Below are positions 1-4,844 of a stretch of DNA of 36,243 nucleotides, in pieces (the stretch's first letter is position 1; the number at the start of each line of letters is the position of its first letter). Under the pieces are notes generated by a model. It saw only the letters and a program-made list of their open reading frames with translations, did no database searches and had not been told where the DNA came from. Source of the stretch: Bacteroidales bacterium (lineage in GTDB: Bacteria; Bacteroidota; Bacteroidia; Bacteroidales; WCHB1-69); contig JAFZZT010000005.1 in the NCBI GenBank assembly GCA_017615595.1, positions 1-36,243 of the forward strand, read 5' to 3'. The position numbers and the translations under genes were made by a program.

Positions 1-275
1 AACCCCTGCAGACCTACGGCCTGCACCGAGCGCGCCATGCCCGCGCCATCCCCCTCAACTGCTAACTACAAACTTCTAACTCCTAACTCCTCTTACTCCT
101 TCTCCTCCAAAGAACGCGACACGGAAACGGGATTATCATATTTTGGTTCAAGGTATTACAGTAGTGATTTGAGCATCTGGTTGAGCGTGGACCCGATGAG
201 TGACAAATATGCAAGTTTGTCTCCCTATAATTATTGCGCGGACAACCCCGTGAAACTCACTGATCCAGATGGACG
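1..275 (+). repeat. Rhs head/core repeat, copy A (left-truncated by window edge)
   Basis: This stretch aligns without gaps to 1895-2168 (offset 1894) and, over its first 100 bases or so, to 3582-3680 (offset 3581). It contains the GCAGACCTACGGCCTGC segment, the CTAACT-rich stretch near 58-90 and the Rhs core coding part. Similarity to copy B stops near the DPDG/DPNG codons, where the variable effector tails begin. Confidence 0.8.
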
Positions 276-915
276 GTGGATTCCCGGGTTGGATGATGAT
301 AATAACATAATTGTAACGCAAGAGGAAGGTGACGACATAAACTCCTTTAAAAAGTTTATGGGGCCAGCATATAGCGATGAGGAAATCCAGAAAATGTTTG
401 GAGAAATGCAGGATGGAAAAATAAACCTTACAACATCTTACGGAGGTGTTTTTCAACTGATGACAGATGCCATTACAGAAGCAAAAAATGACCCCGATTT
501 CGAAATAACAGAAAATTACAATTGTTGGGGGGCCTCTATTGCTTTGATTAACAACAACAGTCTTCAAGGTGATGGACCAGAAGATATATTTGGGGTGGGT
601 TATTGTTTAAACAGTCTCGAGGCCTTTGACAATGCCCTGAGTAACAAATGTACACCAGCCACTCGAGAAACTTCATCTGTCGGGAAAACAGTTGTTAGAT
701 TTGGGACAAATGACTCTAATGGGCACGGTGCTGTTTATATGGGAGAAGACAGAAGTGGGAACGAATATGTCTTTACAAAAAATGGTTGGAATGTACGGCC
801 TACAATAATGCTTACATCGAAAATGCAATCAGAAAACGGCTATGGTCCTAATTGTGACAGATCTGGCACTCTGGGGAAGGGATATTATAACAAAAAAACA
901 AGAAGGAGAAACTGA
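1..915 (+). CDS. Truncated Rhs core with cysteine-peptidase-like C-terminal effector domain (5' end outside window)
   Basis: The frame is open to the left edge, so the beginning is missing; the first ATG inside the window is at 37 and residues below count from it. Residues about 21-79 are the end of an Rhs repeat-associated core: KERDTETGLSYFGSRYY, then SIWLSVDPMSDKY, then NPVKLTDPDG. This core normally sits just before the variable toxic tip of Rhs polymorphic toxins. The tail is AT-rich and different from that of the next Rhs unit. It carries NCWG (Cys163), GHGAVYMG (His230) and YVFTKNG (Asn249). That Cys/His/polar order recalls papain-like, NlpC/P60 or CHAP-type peptidases and amidases, but the exact family is not recognised. 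The next gene starts 3 bases after the stop and encodes an exported small protein, as expected for immunity. No long Rhs shell is visible, so this may be an orphan, possibly silent, toxin tip. Confidence 0.72.
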   Translation, partial: NPCRPTACTERAMPAPSPSTANYKLLTPNSSYSFSSKERDTETGLSYFGSRYYSSDLSIWLSVDPMSDKYASLSPYNYCADNPVKLTDPDGRWIPGLDDDNNIIVTQEEGDDINSFKKFMGPAYSDEEIQKMFGEMQDGKINLTTSYGGVFQLMTDAITEAKNDPDFEITENYNCWGASIALINNNSLQGDGPEDIFGVGYCLNSLEAFDNALSNKCTPATRETSSVGKTVVRFGTNDSNGHGAVYMGEDRSGNEYVFTKNGWNVRPTIMLTSKMQSENGYGPNCDRSGTLGKGYYNKKTRRRN

Positions 916-918
916 ATT

Positions 919-1335
919 ATGAGTTTTTTAATACTTATTTCAACGATATTCGCGGGGACAATACAAATCAATGCTGACACCGTAATGAAATATATCACAG
1001 AGAATGATACATTATATATCACCACAAAAGATATAGTGTCAATTGACACATTCAACAACAACAGCAGTTGGACATTTCATTTGACTGTTGAAACAACTAA
1101 CACATTAGATTCGATAACAGACAAAAAAGGAACAATGTATTTCTACCGAGAGAATAATTGGATAAGACTTAATCCGTATGAGATAACGTCCTGTTGTATT
1201 CCTTACGGACTTTATATTGATTCATATCAAGGGAACTTTATGTATAAGAAAGGCTTGATACATATAGGGCAGCACCTTCGGATTGTTTCGAAGAAAGAAT
1301 TTAAAAGATTTTTACGGAAATTAAGGCACAATTAA
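919..1335 (+). CDS. Small exported protein, candidate immunity protein to the upstream Rhs tip
   Basis: 138 residues with no family I recognise. The N-terminus (MSFLILISTIFAGTIQINA) reads as a short signal peptide or membrane anchor, so the mature protein would act in the cell envelope. The start is 3 bases after the stop of the Rhs tip, with an AAGGAGAAA-like Shine-Dalgarno stretch overlapping the end of that gene; this fixes the start and implies translational coupling. The mature part is predicted mostly beta with a basic C-terminus (KKEFKRFLRKLRHN). Position is the main argument for immunity: in Rhs/CDI-type systems the gene directly after the toxin tip neutralises it. An exported immunity protein would fit a toxin acting in the periplasm. 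Confidence 0.6.
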   Translation: MSFLILISTIFAGTIQINADTVMKYITENDTLYITTKDIVSIDTFNNNSSWTFHLTVETTNTLDSITDKKGTMYFYRENNWIRLNPYEITSCCIPYGLYIDSYQGNFMYKKGLIHIGQHLRIVSKKEFKRFLRKLRHN

Positions 1336-1370
1336 CACTCGACTAATCATCCTGATTAACAGTTCATACT

Positions 1371-1736
1371 ATGCGAAACACATTATATATCGTAATCTCC
1401 AACATGTTGTTGTTGTTGAATCTCGGTGCACAAAACGATAGCACGACACACTACACGAACAAGGAGTCCAACACCAATACACAAAGGGTTTTCTATAACA
1501 CCCTCAATTGTGAAAAGGTACCGGACAAGTGCTTATTTTATTTTTCATCAAAAACTCCAAACGAAAATCAGATTCATCACTTAAAAACAATTTCTCATAA
1601 TCTAATCAATTTTTATACGCCACTGCAGTTCAACGAGAATACTTATTTATACAATCATGACTTTTTTACACCTCCTTACAAAGATATTAGAATTGTTAAG
1701 ATAGTATTATTTGGAGATTCTGCGACAGATTACTAA
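1371..1736 (+). CDS. Small secreted protein of unknown function at the end of Rhs unit 1
   Basis: 121 residues, not recognised. The first 20 or so residues (MRNTLYIVISNMLLLLNLGA, then QND) look like a Sec signal peptide with a plausible cleavage after LGA. The mature part is rich in Asn, Thr and Tyr and contains two cysteines within the NCEKVPDKC stretch. It begins 35 bases after the candidate immunity gene and stops 2 bases before head repeat copy B, so it closes unit 1 exactly. It may be a second immunity factor, an accessory of the effector, or an immunity gene left by an earlier displaced toxin tip. AT-rich like the rest of the unit. Confidence 0.5.
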   Translation: MRNTLYIVISNMLLLLNLGAQNDSTTHYTNKESNTNTQRVFYNTLNCEKVPDKCLFYFSSKTPNENQIHHLKTISHNLINFYTPLQFNENTYLYNHDFFTPPYKDIRIVKIVLFGDSATDY

Positions 1737-1738
1737 TA

Positions 1739-2168
1739 TTTTCTTATTTTCGCCCTGCAATGCACACCCCAGCCCCGACATATCGCCCCTCCGTCCCGCC
1801 AAGGGAAATTCCGCGCAGAATCGCGGAGTGTGACGGGTATGGCTGCCCGCACACCTCCGGCGTGCGATATTGTTCGTGCGGCCCCAATGCTACACACCCC
1901 TGCAGACCTACGGCCTGCATCGGACACGCCATGCCCGCGCCATCCCCCTCAACTGCTAACTACAAACTTCTAACTTCTAACTCCTCTTACACCTTCTCCG
2001 CCAAAGAAAAGGACGTTGAAACTGGCCTAAGCTATTTTGGCGCACGCTATTACAGTTCCGATTTGAGCATCTGGCTGAGCGTGGACCCGATGAGTGACAA
2101 ATATGCATCGCTGAGCCCATATGTTTACTGCGCGGATAATCCAGTGAAGTTAGTGGATCCGAATGGGG
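1739..2168 (+). repeat. Rhs head/core repeat, copy B (complete)
   Basis: Two parts. 1739-1993 aligns without gaps to 3426-3680 (copy C, offset 1687); the first 88 positions (1739-1826) are identical and the whole 255 positions are roughly 90% identical. 1895-2168 aligns to copy A. The 5' part is GC-rich (38 of 60 bases in 1801-1860), against 20 of 60 in the effector tail at 2221-2280. A short hairpin, CCGCG-CAGAAT-CGCGG, lies at 1811-1826. The repeat starts 2 bases after the preceding gene's stop codon. Confidence 0.85.
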
Positions 2169-2740
2169 AAGATTATGAAACAGTTATTGATAAGGATAGT
2201 AAAACTATAACCATAAAGGCTGTTTATTATGCTGAAGATAAAGACAAAAAAGCTTTGCAAAAAGGTGTAGATGCCTGGAACAAACAGTCTGGCAAGTATT
2301 CTTTGACTATTGAAAATGGTGAGTTTGTAGGGACCTATACCATCAATTTTGAATTAACTATTGCTTCGGTAGACAGTAAAAACCAACCTGATGATGGGAT
2401 ATCTAATTCATTCGAAACATATACTGATGAGACTTCTTACAGTGGTGTAACCAATGATGGGCATACTATTAGAGTAAGGCAAGATGCTCCTGAACGAACG
2501 ATCATTCATGAGATCGGTCACACTTTGGGAAATGGAGAATTCGTCTCCGGAGTGATGGAATCAGGAGGCATGAGTGACATAATTCTTAAGGACAACGTTT
2601 CAGAAACCTTAAATCAATCTGGGTTCAAATGTCTTGGTGATTTCTGGAGTAATCAAATAGATAATCCACCCTCACATTCATGTGATAGGGATGGTTCACT
2701 ACGAGAAATCATTTATGGTACAATAAAAAGAACAAAATGA
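1760..2740 (+). CDS. Truncated Rhs core with zincin-like metallopeptidase effector domain
   Basis: 326 residues from the first ATG. Residues 1-75 are a Pro/Arg/Cys-rich stretch encoded by the head repeat that looks unlike normal protein, so the true start may be later, for example the ATG at 1931. Residues 77-136 are the Rhs core end (YTFSAKEKDVETGLSYFG, SIWLSVDPMSDKY, NPVKLVDPNG). The variable tail holds HEIGH at 250-254 in the context HEIGHTLGNGE, followed by SGVMESGG (Met266). This is the zinc-binding helix and Met-turn layout of metzincin-type proteases, with Glu260 where the third His or Asp ligand is usual. The stop overlaps the next start as ATGA, so the lipoprotein that follows is translationally coupled and is the likely immunity protein. 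No signal peptide and no long Rhs shell: an orphan toxin tip, activity unproven. Confidence 0.72.
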   Translation: MHTPAPTYRPSVPPREIPRRIAECDGYGCPHTSGVRYCSCGPNATHPCRPTACIGHAMPAPSPSTANYKLLTSNSSYTFSAKEKDVETGLSYFGARYYSSDLSIWLSVDPMSDKYASLSPYVYCADNPVKLVDPNGEDYETVIDKDSKTITIKAVYYAEDKDKKALQKGVDAWNKQSGKYSLTIENGEFVGTYTINFELTIASVDSKNQPDDGISNSFETYTDETSYSGVTNDGHTIRVRQDAPERTIIHEIGHTLGNGEFVSGVMESGGMSDIILKDNVSETLNQSGFKCLGDFWSNQIDNPPSHSCDRDGSLREIIYGTIKRTK

Positions 2741-3420
2741 AAATCAAAATCTTGATATACATTGCATTTCTCGCAGCCTTGTCTTCTTGTTACCGACCTT
2801 TAAAAATGAGCAGAAGATACTATCGGGCGCAGTCTGATCTGGAAGCGTGCAAAGAGTTGGCGAGAAAGGATTCCACCCTGTCCTCCGTCCATGTCATAGG
2901 GGTTGTACATATTGACACAATCTATGATTATGTTAACCGAGGTGTAAAACCAGAAATATCCGCAGAGGTGCCTCCTTACAAAAACACCTCTGATAGATAT
3001 TTCTGTAGCACAAAGGGGCCAGATGCACAAGGACGGTTTTCCAGAAAAGAATTCCGATACAGAATTTTTGACGACGATTCTTATGTCGTCACCATGGTTC
3101 CATATATCATTGAGGATGTTCTTCCCGCCATAAAGGATTCGTTGTTGAGAAACAAGATTAGTAACCTGATTGATGAGAATGTGGAGTTTCCCTGGCTGTT
3201 TCGTGTAAGCCGAACCATCTTCCTGCCGAAAGAAAGGAGATACTGTCTTGTTGGATGCTTCAAAACAAGTGTTTATTTATATGTTCAACTGCCAGTGTGG
3301 TTTTTCAACCTCAATTATTCCAAGCGAACCACCCTTTCTTCTTATTATTTTTTGGGCGAAGAAGAATATTACAATAAAACACTTAAAGTTTTGATTCCTC
3401 TTCCAGAAGGTGATTATTAA
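2737..3420 (+). CDS. Lipoprotein, candidate immunity protein to the zincin-type Rhs tip
   Basis: 227 residues. The N-terminus MKIKILIYIAFLAALSSC is a lipoprotein signal with the lipobox LSSC (lipidated Cys18), so the product should be anchored in the envelope. The rest (for example the ISAEVPPYKNTSDRYFC region and a hydrophobic-aromatic C-terminal third) matches no family I know. It overlaps the metallopeptidase-bearing gene by 4 bases (ATGA), a strong sign of co-translation. Its stop lies 5 bases before head repeat copy C, so it closes unit 2 just as the gene at 1371 closes unit 1. Envelope location agrees with protection against a peptidase acting on envelope proteins. The immunity role is inferred from position only. 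Confidence 0.62.
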   Translation: MKIKILIYIAFLAALSSCYRPLKMSRRYYRAQSDLEACKELARKDSTLSSVHVIGVVHIDTIYDYVNRGVKPEISAEVPPYKNTSDRYFCSTKGPDAQGRFSRKEFRYRIFDDDSYVVTMVPYIIEDVLPAIKDSLLRNKISNLIDENVEFPWLFRVSRTIFLPKERRYCLVGCFKTSVYLYVQLPVWFFNLNYSKRTTLSSYYFLGEEEYYNKTLKVLIPLPEGDY

Positions 3421-3425
3421 CATAT

Positions 3426-3680
3426 TTTTCTTATTTTCGCCCTGCAATGCACACCCCAGCCCCGACATATCGCCCCTCCGTCCCGCCAAGGGAAATTCCG
3501 CGCAGAATCGCGGGGTATGACGGGTGTGGCCGCCCGCACACCTCCGGCGTGCGATATCGTCTGTGCACCCCCTTTGCTACCAACCCCTGCAGACCTACGG
3601 CCTGCACTGAACACACCACGCCCCCGCCATCCCCATTAACTGCTAACTACAAACTTCTAACTCCCAATTCCTCTTACACC
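3426..3680 (+). repeat. Rhs head repeat, copy C (solitary, core lost)
   Basis: This aligns without gaps to 1739-1993 and then diverges abruptly just where the Rhs core (FSAKEKD in copy B) should begin; an in-frame TAA follows at 3684. The frame from 3447 to 3686 (79 codons) encodes the same Pro-rich stretch and ends there, so I treat it as a remnant and not a gene. The hairpin CCGCG-CAGAAT-CGCGG is kept at 3498-3513. The stretch from 3421 to 3740 holds this repeat, a short palindrome and no convincing gene. Confidence 0.8.
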
Positions 3681-3740: not shown

Positions 3741-4844
3741 TTAGCGAACTATCGCGTAGCACTTCCCGGGCTTCGCCTCTATCACCCCCTTCAACTCCAA
3801 CCCCAACAAAACACCCGCCAGCTTGGAGGGCGACAAGGTGGTGAGGCGCTCCGACAACTGGTCCACCGACATAAGCGACTCTTCCCGCAACAAAGACACC
3901 ACCTGCAACTCCTGGTCGTCCAAATCGGCAAACAACAGCATCTGCCGGGGCTCGGCCGTCTTCTCCCAATTCATCAGACTGATGATCTCCTGACCGGACG
4001 ACACCAGCGCGGCAACATTCTTGTGGACCAGGTTGTGACAACCATCGTGCATCCCATCGAAGATAGAGCCGGGCATGGCAAAGACATCCCGATTGTAGGA
4101 GTGGGCAATGTGGGCCGTGATGATGCTGCCCCCTTTGTAGCCCGTCTCCACCACCAACACCGCATCCGACATGCCCGCGATGATGCGGTTCCGCTTGGGG
4201 AAGTTATTGCGGTCAGGTATGGTGTGGTAACTATACTCCGTGATCAACGCGCCACCGCTCTCTACTATCCGTTGCGCCAACTCTTGGTTTTGAGCAGGAT
4301 AGATCGTGTGAAAACCACAACCCATCACCGCAATGGTGGGAATGTCATACTCCAAGGAGCGACTATGCACCTCTGTGTCAATGCCGTACGCCAGACCACT
4401 GATTGTCACTACGTCTGTCTCCTGCAATTCCCGGACTATCTTCCGCACACATTGACAGCCATATTCTGTCGCATCGCGCGTGCCGACCATGGCCAGAACA
4501 TGGGGGTGTTGGAAAAGAGACGCATTCCCCTGATAATAAAAGCCCAAGGGCGCATCCGCACAACTGTGGAGACGGTATGGATAAAACTCGTCCGTGTAAA
4601 AACAATACGAGATGCCCTGGGCCTCCATGATCGCCAGCTCCTTCTCCACCGTCCGTCTTATGTTGTCCGTAATGCGAGGCAACGACTTCTGCTGCGTCTT
4701 TTTGTTCACCCGATTTCTCCATTTGTCAGGCTCCTCGAAAAGCGACTTGGCCGAACCCGACAACCGGAGCATCTCCTTCAAAGCCCCAGGCTTGTAATCC
4801 TCAAGATACTGTAAAGCAATACGATAAAAAAGTTCTGGATACAT
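3741..4844 (-). CDS. dprA: DNA-processing protein DprA (Smf)
   Basis: 367 residues, normal for the family. DprA binds single-stranded DNA entering during natural transformation and loads RecA on it; it is also kept in many species not known to be competent. Residues about 100-290 form the Rossmann-like DNA-binding domain with MVGTRDATEYG (119-129), ISGLAYGIDTEVH (148-160), MGCGFHTIYP (174-183), NFPKRNRIIAG (214-224) and KGGSIITA (237-244). A C-terminal winged-helix-like stretch (LSERLTTLSPSKLAGVLLGLE region) follows, and the N-terminal 70 residues are a helical SAM-like part. It is a single gene, divergent from the DUF4837 lipoprotein gene, with a TATTTTTG element upstream at 4903-4910. It is the first normal chromosomal gene to the right of the Rhs island. 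Confidence 0.95.
   Translation of the reverse strand: MYPELFYRIALQYLEDYKPGALKEMLRLSGSAKSLFEEPDKWRNRVNKKTQQKSLPRITDNIRRTVEKELAIMEAQGISYCFYTDEFYPYRLHSCADAPLGFYYQGNASLFQHPHVLAMVGTRDATEYGCQCVRKIVRELQETDVVTISGLAYGIDTEVHSRSLEYDIPTIAVMGCGFHTIYPAQNQELAQRIVESGGALITEYSYHTIPDRNNFPKRNRIIAGMSDAVLVVETGYKGGSIITAHIAHSYNRDVFAMPGSIFDGMHDGCHNLVHKNVAALVSSGQEIISLMNWEKTAEPRQMLLFADLDDQELQVVSLLREESLMSVDQLSERLTTLSPSKLAGVLLGLELKGVIEAKPGKCYAIVR

Follow-up and report, generated by a model that had tools for sequence, protein, structure and literature searches.

Organization of the array

The window analysed here is the whole of a 36,243-nucleotide stretch from an uncultured gut bacterium, Bacteroidales bacterium (assembly GCA_017615595.1, contig JAFZZT010000005.1), and at its left end lies an array of orphan Rhs toxin-tip cassettes, all read on the forward strand. 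Each unit would be composed of a 183-bp Rhs core, a toxin domain, a putative exported immunity gene and then a spacer, termed the head. The array opens with a head of which the contig start has left the 3' part (1..93), and continues with the 61-codon (183 bp) core of unit 1 (94..276), predicted toxin tip 1 (277..915; no Pfam match above cut-off), a putative exported immunity protein (919..1335), so read from its open reading frame (ORF) and the hydrophobic N-terminus statistics of its class, and a second small ORF whose N-terminus is signal-like by eye (1371..1736). Between the two units lies a head of 59% GC (1739..1987). It is followed by the core of unit 2 (1988..2170), by predicted toxin tip 2 (2171..2740), which carries HEIGH and is zincin metallopeptidase-like (Peptidase_M57, E 0.0037, below cut-off), and by the putative immunity gene of unit 2 (2737..3420), lipoprotein-like by eye, a relative of which stands at the same place in an array of genome G017. 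A terminal lone head (3426..3680), delimited like the preceding one by repeat alignment, closes the array.

As an initial annotation made from the letters alone had proposed, both long ORFs carry an Rhs core, each matching TIGR03696 (Rhs-associated core) at 63 bits against a cut-off of 32.5; both cores are also recognised by core profile A1. A variable tip behind an Rhs-associated core, as found here, is a feature of Rhs polymorphic toxin systems with orphan cassettes. The repeats are real, since the head at 1739-1993 is identical to 3426-3680 at 231 of 255 bases, and positions 2-272 are identical to 1896-2166 at 222 of 271. Three head copies had been counted; the one in unit 1 turned out to be the 3' end of a head plus the core. 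The gaps from the last stop codon to the next head are 2 bases (unit 1) and 5 bases (unit 2), as claimed, and the units do have different tails, each followed by small ORFs with signal-like N-termini. The lone head likewise stands at the end of the array: its final TACACC is identical to the first 6 bases of the unit 2 core, and divergence begins thereafter.

The window begins at base 1 of contig C50 in a genome (G000) of 53 contigs that is 92% complete; its left end is therefore an assembly break. The same core exists at two further places in this genome, one where C4 starts and the other close to where C53 ends; behind each of these units come an immunity-like ORF and the 5' part of a head. 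On C31 an incomplete head occurs without rhs, and C33 encodes an Rhs of 1,708 aa with a different core. The most suitable reading of the window array is that of an outlying store, with a left neighbour that is absent from the assembly. On its other side the array is directly adjoined by a flanking chromosomal gene, dprA (3741..4844, reverse strand; PF02481, E 1e-72), a gene of natural transformation and recombination; this adjacency is possibly due to chance.

Distribution of units in the genus

Forty genomes of the same genus were searched with core profile A1. Matches were found in 36 of them, with 1-24 per genome, and most are orphans. Among the matches listed, at least eight genomes each have a single long Rhs frame (2,519-3,112 aa), and most of the remaining core frames measure about 90-400 aa, a few about 500-1,169 aa. 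A full-length delivery gene with the same core is present in relatives; in G026 its domains are SpvB, TcdB-mid, RHS repeats, the core and a JAB tip. From the relatives, the best 80 of 297 stretches were kept, representing 71 loci, and the named relatives are mainly uncultured Bacteroidales metagenome-assembled genomes (MAGs) from ruminant gut and horse faeces. The 291 core hits at selected loci were reduced to 198 distinct units, with scores under 80 dropped: 157 clean orphans, 18 units with upstream Rhs sequence, 10 full-length-like units and 13 edge-cut units that were set aside, under a class rule that is imperfect in that at least one Rhs-linked unit (L056) is counted among the clean orphans. 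The units of head, core, tail and immunity gene are part of a genus-wide system. One contig filed under a Clostridia MAG (L085, JAFXZE010000001.1) holds Bacteroidales-type cassettes, including a tip identical to that of L091, by misbinning or transfer.

Arrays frequently stop at contig ends, as an assembly artefact of collapsed repeats would predict. Multi-unit arrays nevertheless occur inside long contigs of several assemblies, and the probability of such an artefact is close to negligible.

The tips are varied. The 186 tails of at least 60 aa fall into 59 families, 24 of them singletons. In a Pfam scan of 10 tips, six had a match at 0.01 and three exceeded the curated cut-off, namely two Toxin-JAB1 (1e-19) and one Peptidase_M91 (8.7e-11). 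HExxH is found in 46 of the 186 tails, compared with a mean of 1.3 and a maximum of 5 over 200 shuffles, and in the family of tip 2 it is kept across 11 aligned members except for the middle residues. Tip 1 shows a Cys...His...Asn pattern by eye, which tentatively suggests a papain/NlpC-like peptidase; the AlphaFold model of this tip is of low confidence (pLDDT 59.9), too poor for a structure search. Directly after the tip, an ORF of at least 80 aa, the putative immunity gene, is present in 181 of 194 units, and 156 of these 181 have an N-terminal hydrophobic stretch, compared with 21 of 442 internal-Met controls. At L205:2826-3916, immunity-like genes (by eye) stand without toxin or core at a locus that holds a cassette in G013.

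The initial annotation had called for a search with the head across genomes. A 190-bp head query matches 33 of the 40 genomes, and the heads themselves vary from genome to genome, many of those listed being low-complexity sequence. A GC-rich part of about 75 bp (window 1844-1919 and 3531-3606) is dispersed throughout the genus, inside and outside rhs loci. Directly before the core stand AT-rich TAACT-type repeats (1949-1987 and 3636-3674), which recur across the window's genome and make up most of 34 matches there; different simple repeats occupy this position in other genomes.

Probable exchange of tips through the core

Five pairs of tips were found in which one genome has the tip linked to Rhs and another has it without such a link (87-97% amino acid identity, ungapped). 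One of them rests on a complete Rhs frame of 3,065 aa, in which the tip of the full-length Rhs of G027 is 96% identical over 194 aa to an orphan in a red-deer MAG; the others rest on partial or contig-cut Rhs frames, and join G005 (contig-cut) to a leader-site cassette of G024 (97%), L139 to G018 (95%), L141 to L139 (96%) and L083 to L088 (87%). The earlier proposal of a cassette store that recombines onto a full-length rhs gene is supported by these pairs.

The further proposal, that heads delimit the exchanged unit, is not supported. Among 29 pairs of near-identical tips, the shared stretch starts no more than 12 bp from the head/core junction in 25; the exceptions begin at -22, -35, -39 and -144, and one pair has 4 bases of upstream room. 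A control comparison attributes these starts mainly to the edge of the conserved core. In 16 high-identity pairs, the pooled identity of the core is 80-90%, depending on the interval, compared with a background of 67-79% and a tip identity of 98%, and about five of the 16 retain high identity through part of the core. Fitted breakpoints in the 16 tip-linked pairs lie beyond core base 150 in 12 cases, at 91-150 in one and at 31-90 in three, with none in the first 30 bases. Conversely, in pairs that are alike upstream and have different tips, the breakpoint lies within 30 bp of the junction at 11 of 13 leader sites (described below), 33 of 53 spacer sites and 4 of 4 Rhs sites, counts that are not independent because the pairs share members. 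Since core identity in tip pairs of at least 95% DNA identity is mostly near background, the exchange is placed in the core; its boundary is not the 5' border of the head. Junction-precise cassette exchange was rejected on the same observation. In three pairs the shared stretch passes through the spacer into the next core on both sides, so whole units move too.

At all the kinds of site compared, the core is thus uncoupled from the sequence on either side of it, which is what a homology arm would show. The exchange boundary lies within and at the edges of the 183-bp core, which points to homologous recombination. Comparison supports a process in which recombination in the shared core would swap a tip and its immunity gene between the Rhs-linked and orphan states, also between species, with the array serving as a store for one large delivery protein, the Rhs of about 3,050 aa in relatives. 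Unequal recombination between core or head repeats may lengthen or shorten the array and leave a terminal lone head; lone heads whose match ends no more than 8 bp from the head/core boundary were found at several other loci among the matches listed. Concerted evolution of the cores was also considered and found weak, with identities of 80.6 within genomes and 77.4 between them.

The recombinase platform

A tyrosine recombinase of 374-375 aa (PF00589, E 3e-23) was searched for in all 40 genomes independently of the core. Where the recombinase start is present and there is room upstream, a core begins, in divergent orientation, 274-342 bp from the recombinase in 13 of 13 genomes; the other two genomes with this recombinase are G026, cut by a contig end, and G037, with a fragment only. 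The frame is intact in seven genomes (G005, G010, G018, G021, G024, G026 and G035), and in G013 a contig end falls inside it. A further 16 recombinase loci are less similar (at most 46%), some of them partial; no divergent core was found in their upstream DNA examined. In the order (393 genomes), relatives of the recombinase that reach E 1e-70 occur in four genomes from other genera, and the 1.5 kb examined there contains no core.

Alignment of the 13 regions between recombinase and core reveals a TAtCTTTGC promoter-like box and direct repeats of TGGCGCA type. Nine of the 13 regions have all three copies, spaced by 11 and 66-68 bp, and in two regions the middle one is GGCGCG. A leader with its own ATG is in frame with the core in 12 of the 13 regions, G039 having one extra base. 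Across the leader/core junction stands an inverted repeat of about TTTGCGGAG / CTCCGCCAAAG. At a score of at least 7, reached by 3% of shuffles, it is found at 17 of 19 leader sites and 0 of 134 spacer sites, for a threshold picked after viewing the data and with some leaders from one genome. After each of the seven intact recombinases comes a gene for an LRADS protein, followed by Rhs in the four cases where the contig continues; the Rhs frame of G024 runs over two of the stretches examined. The LRADS protein of G026 has a type IX secretion system (T9SS) sorting-tail match just below cut-off. At L175:2580-3653, a LytTR-type regulator gene (E 3.7e-10) lies between a decayed recombinase and the Rhs operon, and genes resembling it recur at other Rhs loci.

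An array starts at such a platform in about a third of relatives. In addition to a tyrosine recombinase of phage type, the platform has a promoter-like box in divergent orientation, a short leader that carries its own start codon, and an inverted repeat where the cassette begins. The platform is likely to serve for the insertion or exchange of cassettes at this place and for expression of the first cassette together with its immunity gene, and we infer that the recombinase acts on the cassettes. The promoter-like box and the in-frame start codon of leader-site units also fit expression of orphan units alone, inside the cell, as toxin-antitoxin modules, for which Salmonella Rhs elements provide a precedent in the accessible part of PMC7043789. 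This is quite improbable, for the conserved leader is recognised at only 19 of 185 sites, and most of the ORFs that follow tips look exported, fitting periplasmic targets.

Phage relationships of the recombinase

The platform recombinase is a phage-type integrase that matches phrog_1 and, among the ten matches listed, is 31-34% identical to Porphyromonas phage integrases. A 74% relative lies on gap-free sequence at the end of phage contig IMGVR_UViG_2061766007_004288, beside a second integrase. The dataset of this contig is presumably cow rumen. Such affinities would be explained if the recombinase and leader were the integrase and attachment arm of temperate phages inserting at the start of the rhs core, with the platforms as prophage remnants. 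Against this, the seven intact host cases continue with the LRADS gene, and with Rhs where the contig continues, rather than with phage genes; the phage capsid was not found in the 40 genomes by a search without a positive control. The same scaffold does include a leader site and two cassettes. An N gap stands on each side of this piece, however, and the gene that it interrupts is unbroken in gap-free relatives; the piece therefore appears to have been produced by scaffolding, and phage-borne cassettes were not accepted. An exact search of viral contigs for the leader-site pattern gave no match. Prophage remnants are a rather unlikely account of the platforms. At L241 and L242 (IMGVR_UViG_3300028833_005994), on a second viral contig with cores, a prophage that is Mu-like by eye appears to lie inside an Rhs toxin tip, followed by a leader-type unit.

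Comparison of the same locus across species

G009 and G027 have common chromosomal flanks. These flanks and the distal cassette on each side are 94-96% identical, the proximal cassettes are different, and the recombinase block is 90% alike. Between G005 and G024 the flank is 98% alike, with one cassette in one genome and two in the other and with different tips. The leader-site relatives G005, G010 and G013 have platforms 90-100% alike up to the junction, and their cores drop to background at the junction or no more than about 35 bp past it. At another locus the number of core units is 8 in G018, 3 in G017, 2 in G011 and 1 in G013, and no core was found in the compared stretches of 32 other genomes, several of these stretches being short.

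Additionally, the same chromosomal flank is seen at the leader-side array of G013 and at the Rhs-side array of G018 (L191, L051), as if the module had flipped. This would fit a phase switch, in which the leader site recombines with the Rhs core site facing the other way, so that the module is turned round and the active tip swapped; the two sites are indeed inverted and flank the recombinase, the LRADS gene and Rhs. The shared flank is a single case between distant species, however, and the inverted repeat is missing from most Rhs sites (present at 2 of 13), so that a switch of this kind seems improbable.

Interpretation of the array

The explanation that we consider probable, on the whole, is that of a store of orphan tips that recombines through the core with one large Rhs, and that is headed by a recombinase platform in about a third of relatives; as part of it, the window would be the distal end of an orphan (displaced) Rhs toxin-tip array. 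The contig starts at the window, and the full-length rhs with the same head and core that the initial annotation hoped to meet to the left was not found in the window's genome (92% complete), which yielded orphan frames only. Several results weigh against the explanation. No Rhs N-terminus was found in the window's genome by a search without a positive control, and no platform-type recombinase, only a 25% match at C50:106832. Even among the 13 testable genomes the recombinase frame is short in six (G009, G019, G022, G027, G029 and G039, the last near a contig end). The inverted repeat, largely limited to leader sites, was found at only 2 of 19 Rhs-remnant and 2 of 13 full-length sites, and the breakpoint counts given above do not distinguish platform sites from spacer or Rhs sites. 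A DNA site in the first seven core codons was rejected, as no excess of synonymous conservation was found there (0.22 compared with 0.18, sd 0.17). Single-strand folding of six spacers gave z of -2.31 to +0.35 with no consistent fold. The head as an attC-like element was not supported: the six folds, of which the best was beaten by 1 of 200 shuffles, are not consistently significant, the head sequence differs between genomes, and the inverted repeat is absent from the spacer sites.

Some of these results would be expected if homologous recombination alone built, swapped and shrank the arrays, with the recombinase and leader a bystander inherited beside the Rhs operon. Breakpoints fall at the edges of the core or within it at all kinds of site, and the recombinase group, fragments included, occurs in 15 of 40 genomes compared with 36 for cores, so the arrays need no recombinase today. 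On the other hand, the linkage of recombinase and core at fixed spacing in 13 of 13 regions and the near restriction of the inverted repeat to leader sites speak against a bystander, and the small difference in core identity within and between genomes is unlike frequent local conversion. Recombination alone is possible but somewhat doubtful. A more ambitious extension of the store explanation, which we advance as a plausible but tentative idea, is that a phage-derived recombinase has been turned into a toxin integron, an offensive counterpart of the recombinase-associated immunity arrays (rAID) of Bacteroidales, which would insert, express and exchange Rhs toxin-immunity cassettes site-specifically at the leader site beside the full-length Rhs operon, with the window array as an outlying store.

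Comparison with known systems

Orphan tips are known, and how bacteria keep, move and deploy them is the question that this genus addresses. Nearly the whole genus carries tip stores, and the same tips have been caught in the orphan and the Rhs-linked states. With a recombinase platform at the start of the store in about a third of genomes, the idea of a dedicated exchange machine for polymorphic toxins becomes directly testable. Judging from titles and abstract openings, with subscription literature mostly beyond reach, no description of a recombinase-linked Rhs toxin-cassette array was found. The platform divergent to the first toxin cassette appears, from the sequences compared, to be new here.

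Integrons combine a divergent tyrosine recombinase, a promoter, an entry site and a cassette array. The recombinase of relatives is similarly divergent to the array, with a promoter-like box and an entry site recognised by sequence only, and one pair of loci keeps the distal cassettes while the proximal ones differ. Unlike an integron integrase, the platform recombinase scores 28 bits with the IntI model TIGR02249, for which the cut-off is 265. The attC sites of integrons are folded single-strand recombination sites; the six spacers, judged by folding only, gave no consistent fold. The platform resembles that of an integron or rAID, serving toxins and placed next to a full-length Rhs.

The arrays themselves and the exchange of tips are already known. 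In the accessible part of Zhang et al. 2012 (PMC3482391), Rhs polymorphic toxins have orphan C-terminal cassettes, arrays of which recombine onto the full-length gene, and the median ratio of active toxins to cassettes is 1:3. The system described here is alike in its variable tip and immunity gene and in its cassette arrays recombining onto a full-length gene; it differs from what that part describes in that a genome can hold as many as 24 core matches, the spacers are long, and a platform with a leader and promoter-like box is linked to a recombinase. In Vibrio cholerae, type VI secretion system (T6SS) arrays also show displacement of effector-immunity pairs, with frequent homologous recombination, according to the portion of PMC5361080 available; those arrays keep old immunity genes, whereas here whole toxin-immunity units remain.

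Recombinase-linked immunity arrays are known as rAID (recombinase-associated acquired interbacterial defence), in which, as far as the accessible text of PMC12247911 goes, a predicted tyrosine recombinase is accompanied by an array whose genes are short and of immunity type and whose intergenic motifs are conserved. Both systems have a tyrosine recombinase adjoining a gene array and belong to the same order, the likeness being seen in relatives and not in the window's genome. In rAID the genes downstream of the recombinase are orphan immunity genes, co-oriented and without toxins, whereas the cassettes here carry toxin tips with putative immunity genes, are divergent from the recombinase and lie next to a full-length Rhs. 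The Rhs arrays may be linked in this way to the recombinase-associated immunity arrays of gut Bacteroidales.

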